In this document: positions 10,471 through 52,377 of the stretch, one piece after another
How the letters are laid out: each line of letters begins with the position of its first letter
Numbering within the stretch: the first letter of the stretch is position 1
Source: Dactylorhiza incarnata
Lineage: Eukaryota; Streptophyta; Magnoliopsida; Asparagales; Orchidaceae
NCBI GenBank assembly: GCA_033032865.1
Contig: JAWHQI010000099.1
Location: 1,745,001 to 1,809,000 of the forward strand
Length of the DNA stretch: 64,000 nucleotides
Reading direction: 5' to 3'
Made by a program: the position numbers and the translations under genes
The notes under the pieces: generated by a model
What the model was told of the DNA's origin: nothing
Database searches by the model: none
What the model saw: only the letters and a program-made list of their open reading frames with translations

Positions 10471-11118
10471 TGTGACAGATTTAAATATGCGCCAGATCTC
10501 TTTCCTTCTTTCAGTAGATCTGATTTGTATGGAATAATGTTAATATTTTATAGCCGTTCTGAATCATTCTTTCCTTCTATTTGATTCTTGGCTAATCTGA
10601 TTAACTCTACTTTGGATATTATTTGAAATCAGGACTCATTCTTTCCTTCTACAGAAAATGTCATTATGGAAATATTTCTTTCTTTCTATTTGTCTGATTG
10701 CTAATTGATTTTCCTCCTATAGTATTATTTGACTAAAACAGAGCTATAAAAAGAGGAGGTCGGCAGAAAAATGACTGAGTGATCTACCACATACATTTGA
10801 AATAGAGGAAAAGCTCCCAAAAGAATAGAGAGATAAGCTGAGAAAAGTGATAGTGTGCTGCAGAGACAAAGCCTTCATCTTCTCCTTCTTCTTCTGAAGC
10901 CACTCTGCTGCAAATTCTGATAGCTCTCACATAAGAGAGAAAAGCTACAAATCTTCTTCTTCTCTATAGAAGAAAGATTTAATTCACTTCTTGTGTTTCC
11001 AATCTTCTTGCTAGGAAGAAGATTCATTCTTGTTCTTATTTCTTTCTACTTTATTCTTCTTACTTAAAACATTGTAAAAGAGTTTTTAGAATCTCTCTTA
11101 AAAAAAATTCAGTGTACT

Positions 11119-11222
11119 GGTTCTAAGAGTCTCCTTGTCAAAAGACTCAGTTGGTTCTAAGAGTCTCCATGTCAAAAGACTCAGGGTGGTTCTAAGAGTC
11201 TCCTTATCAAAAGACTCAGTAC
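11119..11222 (+). repeat. Three 34-35 bp tandem hairpin units (Z 5' LTR)
   Basis: Units starting at 11119, 11153 and 11188 share GGTTCTAAGAGTCTCC and CAAAAGACTCAG. Each contains inverted arms GAGTCT and AGACTC. The 3' LTR copy is at about 16848-16946. Confidence 0.85.
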
Positions 11223-15875: not shown

Positions 15876-17209
15876 TGTTGGGAAAATGATTTCTCTTAAC
15901 CCCTAGAAATGAGTTAAAGAAGAATTCTATGAATGAAAAATAAGGCTAAGTAAATATGCGTCGAATATTATTCGACGCAACGTCGAAATGTAGTCGACGT
16001 TTTCTTCAGATTGAGTCGAAGTAACTCTAGGAAGATTTCGACGTATGTGTTGTCGACGTTACTCTGATTTCTAGTCGACGCATCTAATATAGTCGACGCA
16101 CCGTTGTTGACGCACCTTCCTTATTCTCCTCTCGACATCCAGCCAGGATGAATTCGACGCTTACGTCGAATGGTAATCGATGCACGTCGATTTATGTGAC
16201 AGATTTAAATATGCGCCAGATCTCTTTCCTTCTTTTAGTAGATCTGATTTGTATGGAATAATGTTAATATTTTATAGCCGTTCTGAATCATTCTTTCCTT
16301 CTATTAGATTCTTGGCTAAATTGATTAAACCCTTTATGGACATTATTTGAAATCAGATTGAATACTTTCCTTCTATGGATATAACTGTTATGTAAATTTC
16401 TCTTTTTTTCTAATACTCTGCCTGCTAATTGATTACTCTCCTATAGTGTTATTTTAATGAACAGAGCTATAAATAACCAAGGAGGTCGGCAGAGAAAGGC
16501 GACTAGGTGATTCATCATTTTACATTTGAAAAAGAGGAAAAGCTCCCAAGTGATAAAGAGAGAATTGAGAAATAGCCCTGCAGCAATACTCAAGCATTCT
16601 TCTTCTCCTGCTTCTGAAATCACTCTGCTGCAAATTCTGATAGCTCTCACATAAGAGGGAAAAGCTACAAATCTTCTTCTCTCTATAGAAGAAAGATTTA
16701 ATTCACTACTTCTTGTGCTTCCAATCTTCTTGCTAGGAAGAAGATTCATTCTTGTTTTAAATACTTCTTTTCCTTTTTCTTATTTTCATTCTCACATATT
16801 GTAAAAGAGTTTTTAGAATCACTCTTCAAAAAATTCAGTTGTACTGGTTCTAAGAGTCTCCTTATCAAAAGACTCAGTTGGTTCTAAGAGTCTCTTTATC
16901 AAAAGACTCGGGGTGGTTCTAAGAGTCTCCTTATCAAAAGACTCAGTGCAAGATAGTGAATTCCTACCAAGGGGGTAGAAGAGTGGACTACCCAAAGTTT
17001 GGGGAACCACTATATTTTCTTGTGTTGTGCTGTGATTTCTTTTCTTGCATTTACTTTCTTTACTTGTTTAATTCTTGTTGGTGTGTGGGAAGCTATAATC
17101 TGTGATCATACACATATATATATATTAACTTTGCACAAAATAATTTTTAATCTCTATTCACCCCCCCCCCCCTCTAGAGAATTCTAGTGAGGTAAATTGT
17201 GCACTTTCA
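15876..17209 (+). repeat. 3' LTR of Z
   Basis: It starts TGTTGGGAAAATG and ends GTGCACTTTCA, followed by the duplication CAAGC. Most of it matches the 5' LTR closely, but 16320-16445 differs much more from 10600-10740. The C tract is 12 bases here and 14 in the 5' LTR. Confidence 0.9.
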
Positions 17210-17445
17210 CAAGCCTTAAACATCCATTTCCCAATTACCAACAACCAGGCTGAGTATGAGGCAGTGATAGCGGGCCTTCGGCTGGCCCAGGAACTAGGGG
17301 TGCAGGACGTGGAGGTCTCAACGGACTCCATGGTGGTAGCATGCCAAATCAAGGGAGAGTTTGAAGCGAAGGACCCGACCCTCCTGCTATACCTGGAGAA
17401 GGTCAAGGGGTCATCGGGCAGTTCTGCACCTTCTCCATCAAGCAC
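17210..17445 (+). pseudogene. Tat archaeal-type RNase H, second half
   Basis: After the duplicated CAAGC the interrupted frame resumes with QALNIHFPITNNQAEYEAVI, AGLRLAQELGVQDVEVSTDS and QIKGEFEAKDPTLLLYLEKV. This second RNase H is diagnostic of the Tat clade. A frameshift near 17405 moves reading to the integrase frame. Confidence 0.88.
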
Positions 17446-19578: not shown

Positions 19579-20306
19579 TGCGAAGCAATATCGAGCACTA
19601 GCAGTTACTTATTCGGAGGACATGACTGCACATGATTGCTGGGAGCTACTCAGTTAGAGTGCGAAGCAGTTTAAGGACAAGTAGATAGAGGTTTTTTCGC
19701 TATGCTTCCCAGAATTATGCATACTGTACACCATCTTCTCAGACGGACTATTGGAGGGTCATATGTTCGCACCAACATTTTTAGTAGGAGGGATTTCTAT
19801 TCTTGTACAACATGTACGCAGAGTACCAAGTCAATGTGGGGTACTTCCTATTTCAGAGTATATACGATCAGGCGGAAAGACCTTCGATCACCACCATGAG
19901 CATTAGCCCATATATTACATTCCTAGCAAAGGCATTGTGAGCCTTCAATAGACTTTCACACATGGAGTCCATCTATCGGGTGACTCTAATCTCGATGGTT
20001 GATCTAGTGTCTTTGGGGATAGTCAAAATGCATATTGGGCGAAGTGGAGTGCATTTCTACATCGATGGTTGTGTATTGGGTGATCCTCATGTTCGTGCAA
20101 ATAGGCATGCTTCCTCTGGTTCTTTCGACACCCCACCCATTACGAAAGATATTCATGAGTGCAATCAGGCACCAACCACCCCAGAAGTTAGATCTGAAGG
20201 AGTCCAAGAGTTAGATCGATGGAAGAAGACGGAGGAAGCTCGGGAGACTATGACTACCCTAATTGCTACCATTATCAGCACTCAGGAGAGGATGGAGGAA
20301 ACTCTA
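19579..20306 (+). pseudogene. Athila-like gypsy accessory region, left part
   Basis: Broken frames include MTAHDCWELLS, a segment like ILVQHVRRVPSQCGVLPIS and, at 19962-20306, an open stretch starting MESIYRVTLISMVDLVSLGI and ending in an acidic helix (LDRWKKTEEARETMTTLIAT). The pattern resembles the plant transposon-associated protein found in Athila-like elements (putative-plant-transposon-protein family). It continues after the solo LTR at 22233. The assignment is tentative. Confidence 0.45.
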
Positions 20307-20414
20307 TGTTGGGAATCTTGCCCACATGATTCCTGATTTGAAGAAGTCACCAAGTCAAGAAAACTTCACTTTGTATTTGATTACTTCTCTAGCTTATGAT
20401 CTCAGGAAGTTAAA

Positions 20415-20960
20415 GAAATGCCGTCGAGAAGAATACAAGATATCGTCGACAAAGTTTGCACATCGTCATAATGATGAACAGAGCAAACGCTGAGAATTGG
20501 CGAGTTCGTCGAACGCTGAGACGGGATAGAAGAATGAAATTCGTCGAACTCAGAAGGAAGATCGACCACCGCTGAGATTTGGCGTGTTCGTCGAACGCAG
20601 AAGCAAGATCGTCGAATTCAGAAGGAAGATCGACGACCGCTGAAATTTGGCGTGTTCGTCGAACGCAGAAGCAAGATCGTCGAACTCAGAAGGAAGATCG
20701 TCAACCGTTGAGACTCGGCAAGATCGTCAAACGCAGAGAAGACGCAGTATCATCGACTTCATCAAAGTGGCCTTGTCGTTGAGAAGAACAGATATCTTCG
20801 TGAAGAAGCCTTGTCGCTGAGAAGGCTAAGTATGACTAATGTTGTTGGACATCGTCGTAAAGAAGGCATGTCAACTAAAGAAAGACAAGCTGAAGCCTAG
20901 CAGCTGCTGAAGCGTCGACATAACATCACTCATGTCGTCGAGAGAATAACATGATTACGA
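20415..20960 (+). repeat. TTCGTCGAA/TCGACGA motif array with 68-bp tandem units
   Basis: Motifs such as GTTCGTCGAACGC, GATCGTCGAACTC and GATCGACGACC recur. Between about 20544 and 20720 they form 68-bp units (GGCGTGTTCG at 20581 and 20649). Further right, GTCGTCGAG forms predominate. Confidence 0.85.
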
Positions 20961-21662
20961 CGACAGACAGCAAGAAAGAAGATCTCAACGACACAGTCAG
21001 AGATAGCTTATCGTCGTATATGCAGAATTGTCAGGATATCTTGTGTCGTCGAGATACCACCATCAATGGCAGAAGTAAGAAGACTTGAAGATCTACTAAA
21101 GCCCAAGGCATCGACAAAGTCTTGCCGTCGAGATATTGTCCACATCGTCGAGATACTGTCAGTATCAGCTTGAAGATGGAAATATCAAACGTTGCAGACG
21201 CGCTGTCAGCATTTAATGCCGCAGCCTGATTGTCCAATCCGCGCGTGCTCTTATGGAATAGGCGTCTGACATTGAAGGACATCACATGTTACCGTATGCG
21301 GCTCATCTGTCCTATAAAAGGGAACAATGATGCCCTAGAAAAGAAGTCTTCGAAGGAGAAAGAGAAAAAGAACGAGAAAGTATCCCGCCGCTCTTCAATA
21401 GAATAGTATATTCTCGGCGGAGAAGGAGAAGATCAAGTAGAGAGCAAGCATCAAGTGCTCTCTGAAGAATCAGTCATCATCATCGACTGAAAAGTAGCCG
21501 ATCAACAACAGGCAAAAGAAGTGAAGGCTGAAGAAGATCCAGTGCTGAATCTCCAGATCAAAAAGCATCTTCTTCAACCTTAAGAAGCCGATCTTCAACA
21601 GGCTAAAGTTGCCAATCTTCATCCGGCAGAAGTAACAGTCTTATTACTGTAATCTCTTGTAA

Positions 21663-21993
21663 AGGCTTGCGGGCCTATTTTTCTAGCTTGAGGGCTGGAG
21701 AGCTGTGAGGCTTGAGGGTCAGGGCAGTGGACTTGCGGGTCCGACACCGTCTAGCTTGCGGGCTGGAGAGCTGTGAGGCTTGAGGGCCAGGGCAGTGCAC
21801 TTGCGGGTGCGATTTGTCGAGCTTGCGGGCTCGGGGGCAGTAGGGGCTTGCGGGCCTAGGCTGCTGGGATTTGTGGGTCCGTGTTGTAGGGCTTGAGGGC
21901 CTGAGTGTCGAGTTTGTGGGCTCGGGGGCAGTAGGGGCTTGCGGGACTAGGCTGTTGGGACTTGCGGGTCCGAGTTGTAAGGCTTGAGGGCCT
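21663..21993 (+). repeat. Array of about 14 hairpins with constant TTGNGG loop
   Basis: Every 20-26 bp a hexamer loop TTGCGG, TTGAGG or TTGTGG is flanked by complementary arms of 3-5 bp. Examples are AGGC/GCCT (21663), GGAC/GTCC (21729), GCAC/GTGC (21797), CGAGC/GCTCG (21818), GGAT/GTCC with a wobble (21867), CGAGT/GCTCG with a wobble (21909) and GGAC/GTCC (21958). One unit at about 21935 has lost its pairing. It lies in the last third of the LTR, upstream of the C tract. Confidence 0.88.
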
Positions 21994-22232
21994 GAAAATT
22001 TGGCGGAGTTTGCCGAGCCTAGCACACTGCTGGGTAGGCGCAGAGGGACAGAGGACTACTCAAGACACCCAGTCTTGAGGAACCTCTATAGATCGTTGTG
22101 TGTTTTCTGCGTTGTGCTTTCTACTTTTAGATCTACTAACCAGAAATCAAGAACACCTAAAAGGGGATAATATAATTTGAAAAACCTATTCACCCCCCTC
22201 TAGGTGATAAAGTAGACACCCCATAAACAACA

Positions 22233-22740
22233 CTCTACATCACCTTCATTATCAGGGGATAGATCTCCAACAGACACAGTATATGATTACAGACGATTTG
22301 AGAGTTCGGACTGTAAGCACTCATGATTATATTTCCAATTTATGCGGTAAACACAATGCTGCGTCCTCCTCCTGTGAAGGATCGTCTCATTCCCGTGCTC
22401 GCCATGTGCAATCTTTATTTCATGATAGCTGCTAGTTCTATATATTATATGGCTTTCAATTGTAGAAAACTATGTATATATTTCCTTATTTTATGTTTGA
22501 ACATTTGTTATTTGTCATCACGTATATTATTATTGTCTTGAATCTCATGCTACCACTTGTTATAAATATATCCCTGTTCAAATTTATGAAATGTAGTAAC
22601 TTTTTAATTACTTGCTCTCATAAACTTATTTATTACTATAATAATAATAATCATATAAATTATTTATTTTATGTCTTCTCTATACAATGAGGATATTGTC
22701 TATCTTAAGTATGTGCGTGGGGGAGGGGGTGGGGGCATGA
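22233..22740 (+). pseudogene. Athila-like remnant, right part, with polypurine region
   Basis: Sequence resumes after CTCTA as TSPSLSGDRSPTDTVYDYRR in the same broad frame as the left part. AT-rich non-coding DNA follows, then GAGGATATTGTCTATCTTAA and GTGCGTGGGGGAGGGGG (about 22708-22730). This resembles the phrase before the 3' LTR in Athila-like elements. No LTR is recognised after it. Confidence 0.45.
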
Positions 22741-23885: not shown

Positions 23886-24650
23886 GTTTCTCTTCAGCTT
23901 GTTAATTTCAGACAGATCAGTTTTATTCTATTCTCTGAACTCAGATCGACTTTCAACAACGAATCTATTCTTTTAATTGGATCTATTCATTTCCAGATAA
24001 GTAAAAGATTTGTTCCTTTATTTATTTCATTTCCATTTCTCTTCTCTCGAGAAAATAGTCGTTGACATATATTGGAAAATGACACTTTCATGGAAAAGGA
24101 AAAGAGTTAAAGTTTATTTGCTGAATCAGATTACAGTTCCAAGAATATCTATTCAGAATATTTTATTCCTTAAATTAAAAGATTTGAATTTCAAATATGT
24201 CAGAGATTTTCTCTAAGGAAAAATAAAGAAGACGTATTATAGCAGGACAGCATATAGGAAGAAGAGAGAAAGAAATTGTCCAAAAAAGATATACAGGAAG
24301 AAAAAGAAAAAGCTTTCAGATCTTCATCTTCCTCAAGCAGCACCCTTTCATTCTCTGAGAACAAAACAAGATCATTCTCTCAGTATTCTGCTGCTAGTTC
24401 AAATCTTCAAGAGCAACAACAAATCTGAGAAACATTCTCTTAGATTCATTAGCTATCAGGAAGATTTGCTTCATTCAAGTGAAAGCTCCATCCTCAACTG
24501 TCAACCATTTCTATCAGACAAGGAGAGCTTTACAACAACAAATTCGCTAGTCTTCTCTCAGATTATTGACAGAAAAGAACTTCATAACCCTCTTTATCCC
24601 ATCTTGTACAGGGTTCTAACTCCCTTCAAAGGTTAACCCCTTGGTGGCAG

Positions 24651-24760
24651 GGCACCTGATCAAAAACCTATGATTGGTTTGAGCACCTGATCAAAAGCTC
24701 ATTGGTGTTTGGACACCTGATCAAAAATCCATTGGTGATAGGGCACCTGATCAAAAACCT
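24651..24760 (+). repeat. Four 30-bp units before the U5 hairpin (X 5' LTR)
   Basis: Units starting at 24651, 24681, 24711 and 24741 share CACCTGATCAAAA. They occupy the same place as the three hairpin units of the Z LTR. Confidence 0.85.
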
Positions 24761-25029
24761 AGTGGAATCCTACCAAGGGTGGTAGAAGAGTAGATGTACC
24801 CAGGTTTATTGGGGAACTACTATAAATCCTTGTGTCGTATGTGTTCTTGTTTATTTTTCTGTACCGTGCTGTGCTTTGTTCTTCTTTGTTTTTATAACTC
24901 ACTTTGTACACATATAAATATCACTATTTTAACTCCGCTATAAAAATAAGTGAACAACTTTTTAATACTCTATTCACCCCCCCCCCCCCCCCCTCTAGAG
25001 TGACTTTAAGATCTAACCTCACTTTCAAT

Positions 25030-42370: not shown

Positions 42371-43533
42371 AAAATTTATCTCTTTTATTTATCCCTCACT
42401 GTGTGAATTAAGTTCAGTTGGTTTGTTGTCTAAGCAGCTGAGACAAGCTCTTAGCCTCAACAAAACAACTGAGACAAACTCTCAGTCTCAACTGAACAGC
42501 TGAGACAAGCTATTAATCTCAGCTGAACCGCTGAGACAAGGCCTTGGGCCGCTGAGAAGCTTTCTGGATCCGTTGAGACCAAACCGCTGACGTGATATCT
42601 ATTAGATCCAGGGATCGACGAAGACAAGCTCAATCGTCGAACTGAGATCGACGAAAATTATTTTTTTGTCGAACGCAGTCTGACGAAAGCTAAGTCTTTT
42701 CGACTTCTGATCTCTCTCTATATAATCAAACTTTGATTTCATTTTATCTTTATGCCTACATAAATTGCTTCTCTCTCCAGTTCCTTTGCACTTGATCTTT
42801 TTTTTTTCTTTTGCAGGAACAATGACAATATTTCTTCAAAAAAAATTGCATCCTTCCCTACCTCCTATACAACTGTCCCTTCTTCTAGGGGCCTAGCTCC
42901 AGGTCTTCCTGAAACTAGGCAGGGGGAGATGTTTTGAAGAAGCTCCTTTTTGATAGGGGGAGATGCTTTCCTTTTTGATAGGGGGATATGCTTTTTGTAG
43001 AAGCTCAAGTTTCAGGGGGAGATACTGTATGAAGAAGCAAAAATCAGTTCTTGATGAAGAAGCTCCTTTATGATAGGTTTCAGTTATTTTAAGAAGCTCC
43101 GGCAGTTTCAGTTTGATGACACTTATATGACAGATGCAAATGCAGATTCAGAAATAATTTTTGATAGAGCAGATTCAGTTCAGATCAACAAAAGCAAAAG
43201 CTGAAAAATGCAGATTCAGATTCAACAAAGCAGTTCAGTTATTGCTACAGCTCAGATCAACAAAAGCAAAAGCTGAAGGCAAGGATTTATTTCAGTTCTC
43301 TACAATGTCAGAATTCAGAAAGCAAGAATTTGAAAGGCAAATCACATTCAAGCCTCCTTCAGAGAAAGACAAAAGGTTCTGATTATTTGTTTTTATTATT
43401 TCTATTTTCAATGTAAAATTTCAAAACTCAGAGTATCATATTTTATATCTGCTGAAATGTGTAAAATCTATCAGATATATATGCTCTGTTGTTTATTTTA
43501 TTATTTGATTTTGTCAAATAGTGTCCTAACCCA
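42371..43533 (+). other. X region between pol and 3' LTR: hairpins and polypurine-like motifs
   Basis: There is no long ORF, unlike Z. It holds CTGAGA/TCTCAG hairpins (42425-42590), a TCGTCGA block (42610-42690) and polypurine-like words at 42921, 42954, 42979 and 43013 (AGGGGGAGAT type). A pyrimidine-rich stretch near 42840-42910 could be debris of a third ORF. Multiple polypurine-like motifs are a known Sirevirus trait. Confidence 0.7.
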
Positions 43534-43545: not shown

Positions 43546-45060
43546 TGTTGGAACAACCCTATTATTGATTTGAGCTAGGATCACTATTTGTTGACTAGGA
43601 CTAAGTTGACCCCAATGTATAGTCTAAGGGTTAAGGTTTTAGGCTATTAGAACTTAGGAAAAGATCAAGTTTCTGCGTTCGACGAACTCTAAACTGCGTT
43701 CGACGAAATGCATTCTGCGTTCGACGAACGTCTTGCTCCAGTTCGATGAACTTGCCAAGTATCAGCGTTCGACGAACTTGCCAACTCTCAGCGTTCGACG
43801 AACTTGCCAAGTCTCAGCGTTCGACGAACTTGCCAAGTCTCAGCGTTCGACGAACTCAGCTCTGTGGTCGAAGAATAAGTATCAAGATGTTCAGATCAAC
43901 GAAATTCATTCTCAGCTCGACGAATTCAATTCTTCCAGCCAGATTCAGATTTATTCACTCAGTTCGATGAACTCCAACTTGAGCTCGACAAATTCCAGTC
44001 TGCATTCGATGAATCAACAACAGATGTTCAGTTCGACGAAATCCAACATTCTGTTCGACGAACTCAGTTCTCAGGTCGACGAAAGTTTCTCTTTAGCTTG
44101 TTAATTTCAGACAGATCAGTTTTATTCTATTCTCTGAACTCAAATCGACTTTCAGCAACGGATCTATTCTTTTATTTGGATCTATTCATTTCCAGATAAG
44201 TAAAAGATTGGTTCCTTTATTTATTTCCTTTCCATTTCTCTTCTCTTGAGAAAATAGCCGTTGACATATATTGGAAAATGACACTTTCATGGAAAAGGAA
44301 AAGAGTTAAAGTTTATTTGCTGAATCAAATTGCAGTTCCAAGAATATCTATTCAGAATATTTTATTCCTTAAATTAAAAGATTTGAATTTCAAATCTGTC
44401 AGAGATTTTCTCTAAGGAAAAATAAAGAAGACGTATTATAGCAGGACAACATATAGGAAGAAGAGAGAAAGAAACTGTCGAAAAAAAGATATACAGGAAG
44501 AAAAAGAAAAAGCTTTCAGATCATCATCTTCCTCAAGCAACACCCTTTCATTCTCTGAGAACAACACAAGATCATTCTCTCAGTATTCTGCTGCTAGTTC
44601 AAATATTCAAGAGCAACAACAAATCTGAGAAACTTTGTCTCTCAGATTCATCAGCTATCAGGAAGATTTGCTTCATTCAAGTGAAAGCTCCATCCTCAAC
44701 TGTCAACCATTTCTATAAGACAGGGGGTGCTTTACAACAACAAATCCACTAGCCTTCTCTCAGATTATTGACAGAGAAGAACTTCATAACCCTCTTTATC
44801 CCATCTTGTACAGGTTCTAACTCCCTTCAAAAGTTAACCTCTTGGTGGTAGGGCACCTGATCAAAAACCTATGGTTGGTTTGAGCACCTGATCAAAAGTT
44901 CATTGGTGTTTGGACACCTGATCAAAAATCCATTGATGATATGGCACCTGATCAAAAACCTAGTGGAATCCTACCAAGGGTGGTAGAAGAGTAGATATAC
45001 CCAAGTTTATTGGGGAACTACTATAAATCCTTGTGTCGTCTGTGTTCTTGTTTATTTTTC
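43546..45060 (+). repeat. 3' LTR of X, truncated
   Basis: It starts TGTTGGAACAACCC and parallels the 5' LTR to TGTTCTTGTTTATTTTTC, where it breaks about 165 bp before the expected end. The TTCGACGAA array is at 43676-44090. The break removes the C tract and target duplication. Confidence 0.92.
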
Positions 45061-51105: not shown

Positions 51106-51920
51106 GATTTCTTTTTGGTGTTGGGAATTAGTGAGCTCCCTTGGCTCCCTGTTAGCAGTTCTTTTGCTTGGGCTGTGTGGGGAAATGGTGAATTCTAGGT
51201 TATAACTCTCGAAAATGGTTATTAGATTATGTGTTAGAATGTTATTCAAGACCGTGGTGACTGCTATAACATTTATGCACACCTTGGATAGGATGGATGG
51301 AAACTAACATTAGGTTGGTCTACTTGTGATTTAAATTCTCTGGGTTATATGCTAGAGATTTCCTTTGTTGGGAAGGGTTGAGGCAGTCAACTATTCGTTT
51401 TTTTTATGGGGTTTTCCTTGGACGATTTTATATTAGCTAAGTCCTGAACTCCTTTATTTGGTTTAATATGACTGGTCTTGCTCGGCTAATTTTCAATCCT
51501 GCACTTTTCCTTTGTTGGCTAAGTTTTGATGTTTCGGCGGGCTAAAATTCCCTGGAAATTTTGTATTCTAATTTCCTGACGACTTGGGGAAATTAGATGC
51601 TAAATTTCCTGGGAATTTCTCTTGCTAGTTCTTGATGATTTAGTGAGGCGAGCAATTGTTGTCTTGAAGGATTCGTGGATGAGACTTCGGCCTTGGGTCT
51701 CCATCTGTTCCAGGGACCGACAACTTTGTACTCATAGTAACAGAATGTATCGAATACTATTATATAACACTCATATATATATATAAGTTATTGAAGGTTG
51801 CTAAATAGCTTTACACTTATAGCGAATGTTAAAGTTCATCCTCCTGTGTTAAACATGAGACCCTCCTTGATCGTCAAACTAAGCACGTTGCTCATGAGTT
51901 TATGTTGGAAAATGGTATTA

Positions 51921-52377
51921 GACTGGAGAGTGGGTGGACGTATGGGGTCCTCTCCACAGTGGTTTCAGACTGGAGAGTGGGTGGACGTATGGGCCCTCAC
52001 CACAGTGGTTTCAGACTGTAGAGTGGGTGGACGTATGGGCCCTCACCACAGTGGTTTCAGACTGGAGAGTGGGTGGACGTATGGGCCCTCACCACAGAGG
52101 TTTCAGACTGGAGAGTGGGTGGATGTATGAGCCCTCACCACAGTGGTTTCAGACTAGAGAGTGGGTGGACGTATGGGCCCTCACCATAGTGGTTTCAGAC
52201 TGGAAAGTGGGTGGACTTATGGGCCCTCACCACAGTGGTTTCAGACTGGAGAGTGGGTGGACGTATGGGCCCTCACCACAGTGGTTTCAGACTGGAGAGT
52301 GGGTGGACATATGGGGCCCTCACCACAGTGGTTTCAGACTAGAGAGTGGGTGGACGTATGGCCGTCCACCACAGTTC
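51921..52377 (+). repeat. 46-bp tandem repeat, about ten copies
   Basis: Units of GACTGGAGAGTGGGTGGACG, TATGGGCCCTCACCACAGTG and GTTTCA start at 51921, 51968, 52014, 52060, 52106, 52152, 52198, 52244, 52290 and 52337. The period is 46, or 47 where one base is added. Since 46 is not a multiple of three, the long open frames here are chance. Confidence 0.96.

Follow-up and report, generated by a model that had tools for sequence, protein, structure and literature searches.

A tandem array of 15 short hairpin units was found on the plus strand of a solo long terminal repeat (LTR) of Dactylorhiza incarnata, within the 64,000-nt stretch of DNA analysed here (the window). The loop is constant (TTGNGG, family-wide TTG(A/C)GG), the stems covary, and the array is likely to be under selection at the RNA level. 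A literature search, with most subscription papers outside its reach, found no description of such a tandem hairpin array, in keeping with the initial annotation, which knew of no LTR element like it.

The boundaries of the host LTR were taken from full-length copies. In locus L417 the junction between LTR and primer-binding site (PBS) reads AACAACA|AGTGGTATCAGAGC, with the PBS TATCAGAGC, which places the LTR end at 22232, rules out an alternative end at CCAACA (~22270) and allowed the flanking target-site duplication to be recognised. In locus L418, AATAGGGGGAGAT directly precedes TGTTGGG, giving the PPT|LTR junction with the PPT AGGGGGAG. The window copy, being a solo LTR, carries no PBS of its own. 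Since both motifs match those given in the accessible text of PMC2829016, the LTR was called a Sirevirus-type Copia LTR. Two other signals of Sirevirus-type LTRs were also present, the TATA motif CTATAAAAG at 21312 and the poly-C integrase signal TTCACCCCCC at 22189.

Table 1. Features of the host LTR, of the hairpin array and of the corresponding arrays in other LTR families (positions in the window).
Feature	Positions	Strand	Remarks
Solo LTR (TGTTGGG...AACAACA), Copia element with Sirevirus-type signals	20307–22232	+	Target-site duplications on both sides; L417 and L418 junctions
Target-site duplication CTCTA, left	20302–20306	.	From sequence; LTR end set by L417 junction
Target-site duplication CTCTA, right	22233–22237	.	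From sequence
U3 palindromic repeats, TTCGTCGAA type	20488–20737	+	Upstream of TATA box
TATA box CTATAAAAG	21312–21320	+	Presumed start site ~21345 (inferred, 25–35 nt past TATA)
Presumed 5' leader part of LTR	21345–22232	+	888 nt without ATG
Array, 15 units, constant loop TTGNGG, covarying stems	21663–21993	+	Family-wide loop TTG(A/C)GG
Hairpin 1, AGGC/GCCT	21663–21676	+	
Hairpin 2, CTAGC/GCTGG	21682–21699	+	
Hairpin 3, GGC/GTC	21709–21720	+	Weak; absent from local MFE
Hairpin 4, GGAC/GTCC	21728–21743	+	
Hairpin 5, CTAGC/GCTGG	21750–21767	+	
Hairpin 6, GGC/GCC	21777–21788	+	Absent from local MFE
Hairpin 7, GCAC/GTGC	21796–21811	+	G-C/C-G swap against its duplicate, hairpin 4
Hairpin 8, CGAGC/GCTCG	21817–21834	+	
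Hairpin 9, GGGC/GCCT	21844–21857	+	Other register in local MFE
Hairpin 10, GGAT/GTCC	21867–21880	+	
Hairpin 11, GGGC/GCCT	21889–21902	+	
Hairpin 12, CGAGT/GCTCG	21908–21925	+	
Unit 13, GGC/GAC	21938–21945	+	Pairing lost
Hairpin 14, GGAC/GTCC	21958–21971	+	
Hairpin 15, AGGC/GCCT	21980–21993	+	
Downstream hairpin A, CCTAGCA CAC TGCTGGG	22018–22034	+	Families 1 and 2: CTACC/GGTAG hairpin here
Downstream hairpin B, CTCAAGAC ACCCA GTCTTGAG	22059–22079	+	Families 1 and 2: CCCA/TGGG-type stems here
Poly-C signal TTCACCCCCCTCTAG	22189–22203	+	
Family 1, corresponding 3-unit hairpin array, GAGTC ... GACTC	16845–16947	+	Identical arms; other copy 11118–11220
Family 2, corresponding 4-unit hairpin array, loop CACCTGATCAAAA	24644–24770 (approximate ends)	+	

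The units are marked by YTTGNGGG motifs starting at 21666, 21687, 21711, 21732, 21755, 21779, 21800, 21822, 21847, 21870, 21892, 21913, 21938, 21961 and 21983, that is, at spacings of 21, 24, 21, 23, 24, 21, 22, 25, 23, 22, 21, 25, 23 and 22 bp. The initial annotation had described about 14 hairpins with a fixed TTGNGG loop, repeated every 20–26 bp; the array and the spacing (21–25 bp observed) are confirmed, the number of units is to be corrected to 15. The differing arm pairs it had quoted are all present in the array, and the one unit it had considered unpaired, near 21935, is indeed the single unit in which pairing is lost (21938). At least three consecutive stem pairs are formed in 14 of the 15 units and at least four in 12. 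TRF detected two duplications of a higher order within the array, 68 and 91 bp long, and the duplicate hairpins 4 and 7 differ on both sides of the stem. The unit spacings do not keep to multiples of three, as those of a coding tandem repeat would.

The complementarity of the arms exceeds chance. When the 3' arms were permuted among the 15 units, none of 20,000 permutations reached the 57 of 60 inner positions paired in the real array (mean 45.5), and with a single representative of each 68- or 91-bp duplicate, in two sets of eight units, p ranged from 0.0008 to 0.006 by set and measure. The nine other YTTGNGGG sites on the plus strand of the window form runs of one or two pairs only. A three-unit pattern matched four times in the window and in none of 100 shuffles. 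With local pairing only, the mean probability of the inner three pairs was 0.743, against 0.180 in arm-shuffled arrays (maximum 0.456).

Folding energy, which the initial annotation proposed to compare with shuffled controls, did not set the array apart: the global minimum free energy (MFE) over 361 nt gave z = −3.3 on the plus strand and −0.7 on the minus strand, making use of long-range pairs, but with local pairing only z was −1.8 and −1.5, respectively, and 13 of 200 arm-shuffled arrays folded as well as the real one. When folding is left unconstrained, the unit hairpins face competition from long-range pairs; the expected hairpin is present in the local MFE in 11 of the 15 units. Local folding in 120-nt sliding windows did not single out the array (z mostly above −2), and stability was therefore not counted as evidence. 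The signal of the array is arm complementarity, not stability, its folding energy being ordinary for its composition.

In the whole 3.27 Gb genome containing the window, the triple-unit pattern was matched 60,991 times (29,887 + 31,104), and the reversed pattern 8 + 40 times. As the first 100 matches listed group into 19 arrays, roughly 10^4 LTRs would carry the array, with 5–17 units in the other loci read. Covariation was assessed on 115 distinct TTGMGG-loop units, picked irrespective of their arms, from 18 other loci, which had been located by a pattern with pair 1 and one pyrimidine kept fixed. Over the four inner pairs, standard pairs made up 88.7% of the cells (75.1% when shuffled), both-side changes 75 cells (27.4) and the covariation score was 0.573 (0.304), none of which was reached in 500 shuffles. 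Of the five measures, the remaining two were weaker: 103 of the 500 shuffles attained the observed value for pairs showing a both-side change, and 28 did so for further pair types. The units are related, which inflates these tests, and the shuffle counts are not to be read as probabilities. In slid registers, standard pairs amounted to at most 58.7%. When one pair was counted genome-wide in CRAGC-TTGMGG-GCTYG, over copies that are not independent, we found G-C 9292, A-T 2396, G.T 2404 and A.C 577 (odds ratio 16). Outside this genome, triple-unit patterns matched 84 and 101 stretches of viral_contigs and at least 120 of genome_contigs, which were judged, from match lengths and hosts, to be coding repeats or chance; two patterns derived from the conserved downstream hairpins had no match in viral_contigs.

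The loop is constrained as well. Of the 682 TTGNGG hairpins from 58 loci in which three positions are paired, 378 have C as the fourth base of the loop, 276 A, 27 T and one G, A or C thus occupying the M position of the YNMG consensus in 654. Since the T cases are matched by the mirror decay TTGCAG (28 cases), C and A look like maintained states. On sequence grounds, T[TG(A/C)G]G, with its U.G closing pair, agrees with the YNMG (UNCG-like) consensus for tetraloops, and four-base loops were drawn by the local MFE in 11 of the 15 units. TTGMGG is not self-complementary, as a kissing loop would be. According to the available text of PMC5633025, UGCG is frequent among the natural loops of the enterovirus oriL, where replication was also supported by UGAG and UGUG loops closed by a U.G pair.

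As to the position of the array, no ATG occurs in the 888 nt between 21345 and the LTR end, where the PBS adjoins in L417, against 20 in the 1038 nt upstream. Base composition would predict 13.5 when summed over segments, and 15.7 when taken over the 854 nt of leader in L299, the window's own copy, where other triplets still occur (CAT 6, GTA 12, TGA 16). In L417, the first ATG past the LTR opens the gag frame. An ATG-free stretch running to the LTR end is what a 5' leader scanned by ribosomes should show, and we presume it to be such a leader; the placement of the array in the RNA leader, already advanced in the initial annotation, is supported, short of proof, by this stretch and by the TATA box at 21312, from which the start is inferred. 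Between TATA and poly-C, the count could be made in 10 of 26 loci tried: nine had 0–5 ATG where 15–18 were expected, and the tenth (L370), whose stretch spans two arrays, 22 where 39 were expected. Over 18 diverse arrays ATG was depleted, not absent (42 vs. 121 expected). For four other LTRs of the window, ATG were counted up to the LTR end, starting from the TATA box or from the last ATG upstream, and the observed and expected numbers were 2 and 13.0 in LTR1a, 0 and 12.8 in LTR1b, 2 and 13.6 in LTR5, and 3 and 13.3 in LTR2, the last counted from the last upstream ATG as it has no clear TATA box. Two LTRs of the window besides the host LTR have TATA-to-LTR-end stretches free or nearly free of ATG (16458–17212 and 1697–2483, with 0 and 1 ATG, respectively).

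Corresponding arrays were found in two other LTR families of the window, and in all three families they lie upstream of a conserved block made of hairpin A, GGACTAC or similar, hairpin B and GGAACYWCTATA; hairpins A and B retain pairing with different stems among families. The four units of family 2 have arms CAGG/CCTG, TGAGC/GCTCA, TGGA/TCCA and TAGG/CCTA; units 1 and 4 pair in a shifted register, their pairing being register-dependent. Over 104 family 2 units of 30 loci, read in the same register, pairs 2, 3 and 4 were standard in 103, 100 and 102 units, and pair 5 in 53; pairs 2 and 3 alternate between G-C and A-T, and pair 4 between G-C and G.T. Family 2 keeps three ATG in its presumed leader. 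The hairpins of family 1 have a related loop, and one common stem is shared by its three units, hence no covariation is seen. The loops of family 2 (24644–24770 and 44845–44970) hold the six-base palindrome TGATCA, repeated four times, a possible kissing-loop dimerisation site. Other repeats and hairpins were noticed in the window. Near the 3' end of LTR5 (2020–2260) small hairpins stand back to back (CGGC TTGAG GCCG; ATCC GGGGAA GGAT; local-fold z −3.2 to −3.6). A 31-bp tandem repeat of inverted repeats (CTGAGAC...GTCTCA type) occupies 42435–42540; it is preceded by an RVT_2 frame and followed by two PPT-like repeats (42944) that belong to another Copia element. A minisatellite of ten 46-bp units lies at 51913–52375.

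We tentatively propose that the array is a multivalent leader RNA element, serving probably in Gag recognition and packaging. It would be part of the 5' leader of the plus-strand element RNA, each unit being predicted to form a 3–6 bp stem capped by a U[UG(A/C)G]G tetraloop of YNMG (UNCG-like) consensus. As the capped stem and the loop are kept and the arm sequence is not, the units would act as a row of equivalent docking sites for one RNA-binding partner, most likely the element's own Gag, which has a CCHC knuckle. By analogy with short leader hairpins in Ty1 and retroviruses, the task may be selection, dimerisation or packaging of the genomic RNA. A serious competitor, to which we give a smaller share of belief, is that the array governs translation or RNA fate by way of a host RNA-binding protein, and not of Gag, with an effect on ribosome scanning, on the stability of the RNA or on its export from the nucleus. 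Ribosomes probably scan the presumed leader, since it is free of ATG up to the LTR end and followed by the gag start in L417. However, loop and array vary among LTR families of one genome (TTGMGG; CACCTGATCAAAA; CCTTGTCAAAA-type), and family-specific loops and arrays fit element-specific partners better than one host factor.

In the 40 closest copies, 95–100% identical over the array, pairing was kept in changes from G-C to G.T (51 cells) and from G.T to A-T (10), and lost in changes from G-C to A.C (19) and in 48 other counts, four of which are two double losses counted from both sides. Stem changes were mostly uncompensated, and no compensated double change was found among these 40. At the 21 CpGs of the same copies, C>T was counted 51 times and G>A 44 times, of which 15 and 14 in stems, and in the loops of the 58 loci CpG decay was 27 C>T and 28 G>A; as decay in stems is near symmetric, we read the uncompensated changes as decay after insertion. 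Over all sites, G-C pairs showed G>A less often than spacers did (odds 0.44, p 0.002), with no such deficit for C>T (p 0.72); the direct interaction test gave p 0.08 on cells that are not independent. Compensatory change, as expected of a packaging element, was seen between units and genome-wide and not within the 40 closest copies. The compensation that the initial annotation proposed to test in related copies is thus absent from the closest ones and appears between lineages and units.

Both changed bases of CRAGC-TTGMGG-GCTYG lie in CpGs and CpG decay has little strand bias, therefore neutral decay of a G-C pair should give G.T and A.C about equally. The observed four-fold excess of G.T, which is a wobble in plus-strand RNA where A.C is no pair, points to the plus strand as the RNA, as selection at the RNA level predicts. 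Selection on a folded strand, suggested at the outset, is hence supported by unit covariation, by the genome-wide count and by this excess. The same counts weigh against the view, which we hold to be improbable, that the array is a functionless copying artefact of hairpin-templated repair or template switching by reverse transcriptase (quasipalindrome correction) together with tandem duplication. Growth by blocks of 68 and 91 bp, uncompensated decay in close copies and unexceptional folding energy all agree with it, and a copying mechanism, also raised in the initial annotation, is possible for the origin of new arms. Template correction, however, yields Watson-Crick arms and, given near-symmetric CpG decay, no favour for G.T over A.C (2404 vs. 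577); hairpin template switching leaves that excess unexplained, as well as the limit to A or C at the fourth base of the loop and the ATG-free stretch.

We give little credence to a regulatory repeat acting as DNA, be it a transcription-factor site TTGMGG or units extruded as cruciforms like the U3 palindromes of Sireviruses. Sirevirus LTRs do have clustered palindromes, that is, repeated dyad-symmetric units, proposed as cis-acting sites in the accessible part of PMC2829016, and the window LTR has TTCGTCGAA palindromes in U3. Sirevirus palindromes, however, are constant, lie upstream of the TATA box and mostly have a CGG-CCG core, those of the window LTR being of the TTCGTCGAA type, whereas the array begins 343 bp past the TATA box, keeps its loop constant and varies its arms. 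Moreover, a DNA-binding site requires no covarying arms, and a cruciform would treat G.T and A.C alike, since its strands mirror each other, whereas the counts differ four-fold. Dicer substrates are much longer than the array stems of 3–6 bp, and selection on the element would not be expected to preserve a target of silencing, so that a structured transcript diced to feed silencing is a very improbable account. Structured Copia LTR regions of maize do attract small RNAs, as far as the available text of PMC10760457 goes.

Arrays in the same orientation occur 5.3–6.6 kb apart at several places, and one C7 pair 9.0 kb apart; provided that they are LTR pairs, the internal region of the element would measure about 3.4–4.6 kb. 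Internal pieces at four places contain a gag domain of copia type (E 4.8e-6, narrowly under the Pfam curated cutoff). They also contain a PF20167-like frame (E 9.9e-10) and a CCHC knuckle that is weak (E 0.006), both likewise under the curated cutoff. No pol domain was found in the scanned frames of these four pieces, which are short of a whole element, and the element is likely to be non-autonomous. L417 and L419 show gag, the weak CCHC and the PF20167-like frame, with pol not seen, in a very abundant family. When a gag piece was compared with 1522 candidate proteins, none matched at E ≤ 0.001. The stretch L420:1003–1689, between two C7 arrays, holds a tandem repeat that reads ATSQGEVARL in one frame and has no Pfam match. 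In five comparisons of neighbouring LTRs, from four probable elements, the LTRs were 92–95% identical with nearly equal unit numbers, which suggests that units are gained mainly in the retrotransposing lineage.

Extra units would raise avidity for Gag, and such a gain would explain why units were multiplied in blocks of 68 and 91 bp, and why the array is kept in copies where pol was not seen and which would need help in trans. A bolder idea, which we regard as rather unlikely as it stands, is that of an amplifiable RNA signal: plant Copia elements would compete for Gag by multiplying a leader tetraloop hairpin, the number of units setting the strength and the loops proper to each family giving specificity, and elements with gag and without pol would have reached about 10^4 LTRs in this way.

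Retroviral packaging signals are leader stem-loops with exposed conserved loops; these and R-region signals are few and distinct stem-loops, whereas here one unit forms a long tandem array. In long retroviral R regions residual conservation was linked to stem-loops (PMC3601003, in its accessible text). Closer in kind are the hairpins and kissing loops in the 5' leader of Ty1 (TIPIRT domain), also a Copia-type element (Pseudoviridae) with short hairpins near the 5' end of its genomic RNA, for which the available text of PMC5454406 reports that stem pairing rather than sequence matters, with compensatory rescue, and proposes a role in dimerisation or packaging. The hairpins of Ty1 are single and unlike one another, whereas here one type is repeated, its loop is not self-complementary, and dependence on Gag is presumed. 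The YNMG hairpins of domain d of the enterovirus oriL share the UGCG/UGAG consensus and tolerate a U.G closing pair, and their spatial structure weighs more than exact sequence (PMC5633025, text available in part); they differ in being picornaviral and bound by 3C/3CD, while the fold of the tandem array in this plant retroelement is predicted.

Retrotransposons make up much of plant genomes and, to our knowledge, their cis-acting RNA signals are poorly known. A tandem signal with very many natural variants, diverged inside a single genome, amounts to a covariation experiment already carried out by nature, which reveals the parts of the hairpin that count with no need of mutagenesis, and the ATG-free stretch offers a simple way, from sequence alone, to map the leaders of plant LTR elements. 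The array makes the question of what a plant Gag recognises directly testable and, if the number of units tunes mobilisation, it could also be part of the reason why copies that lack pol reach such high numbers.
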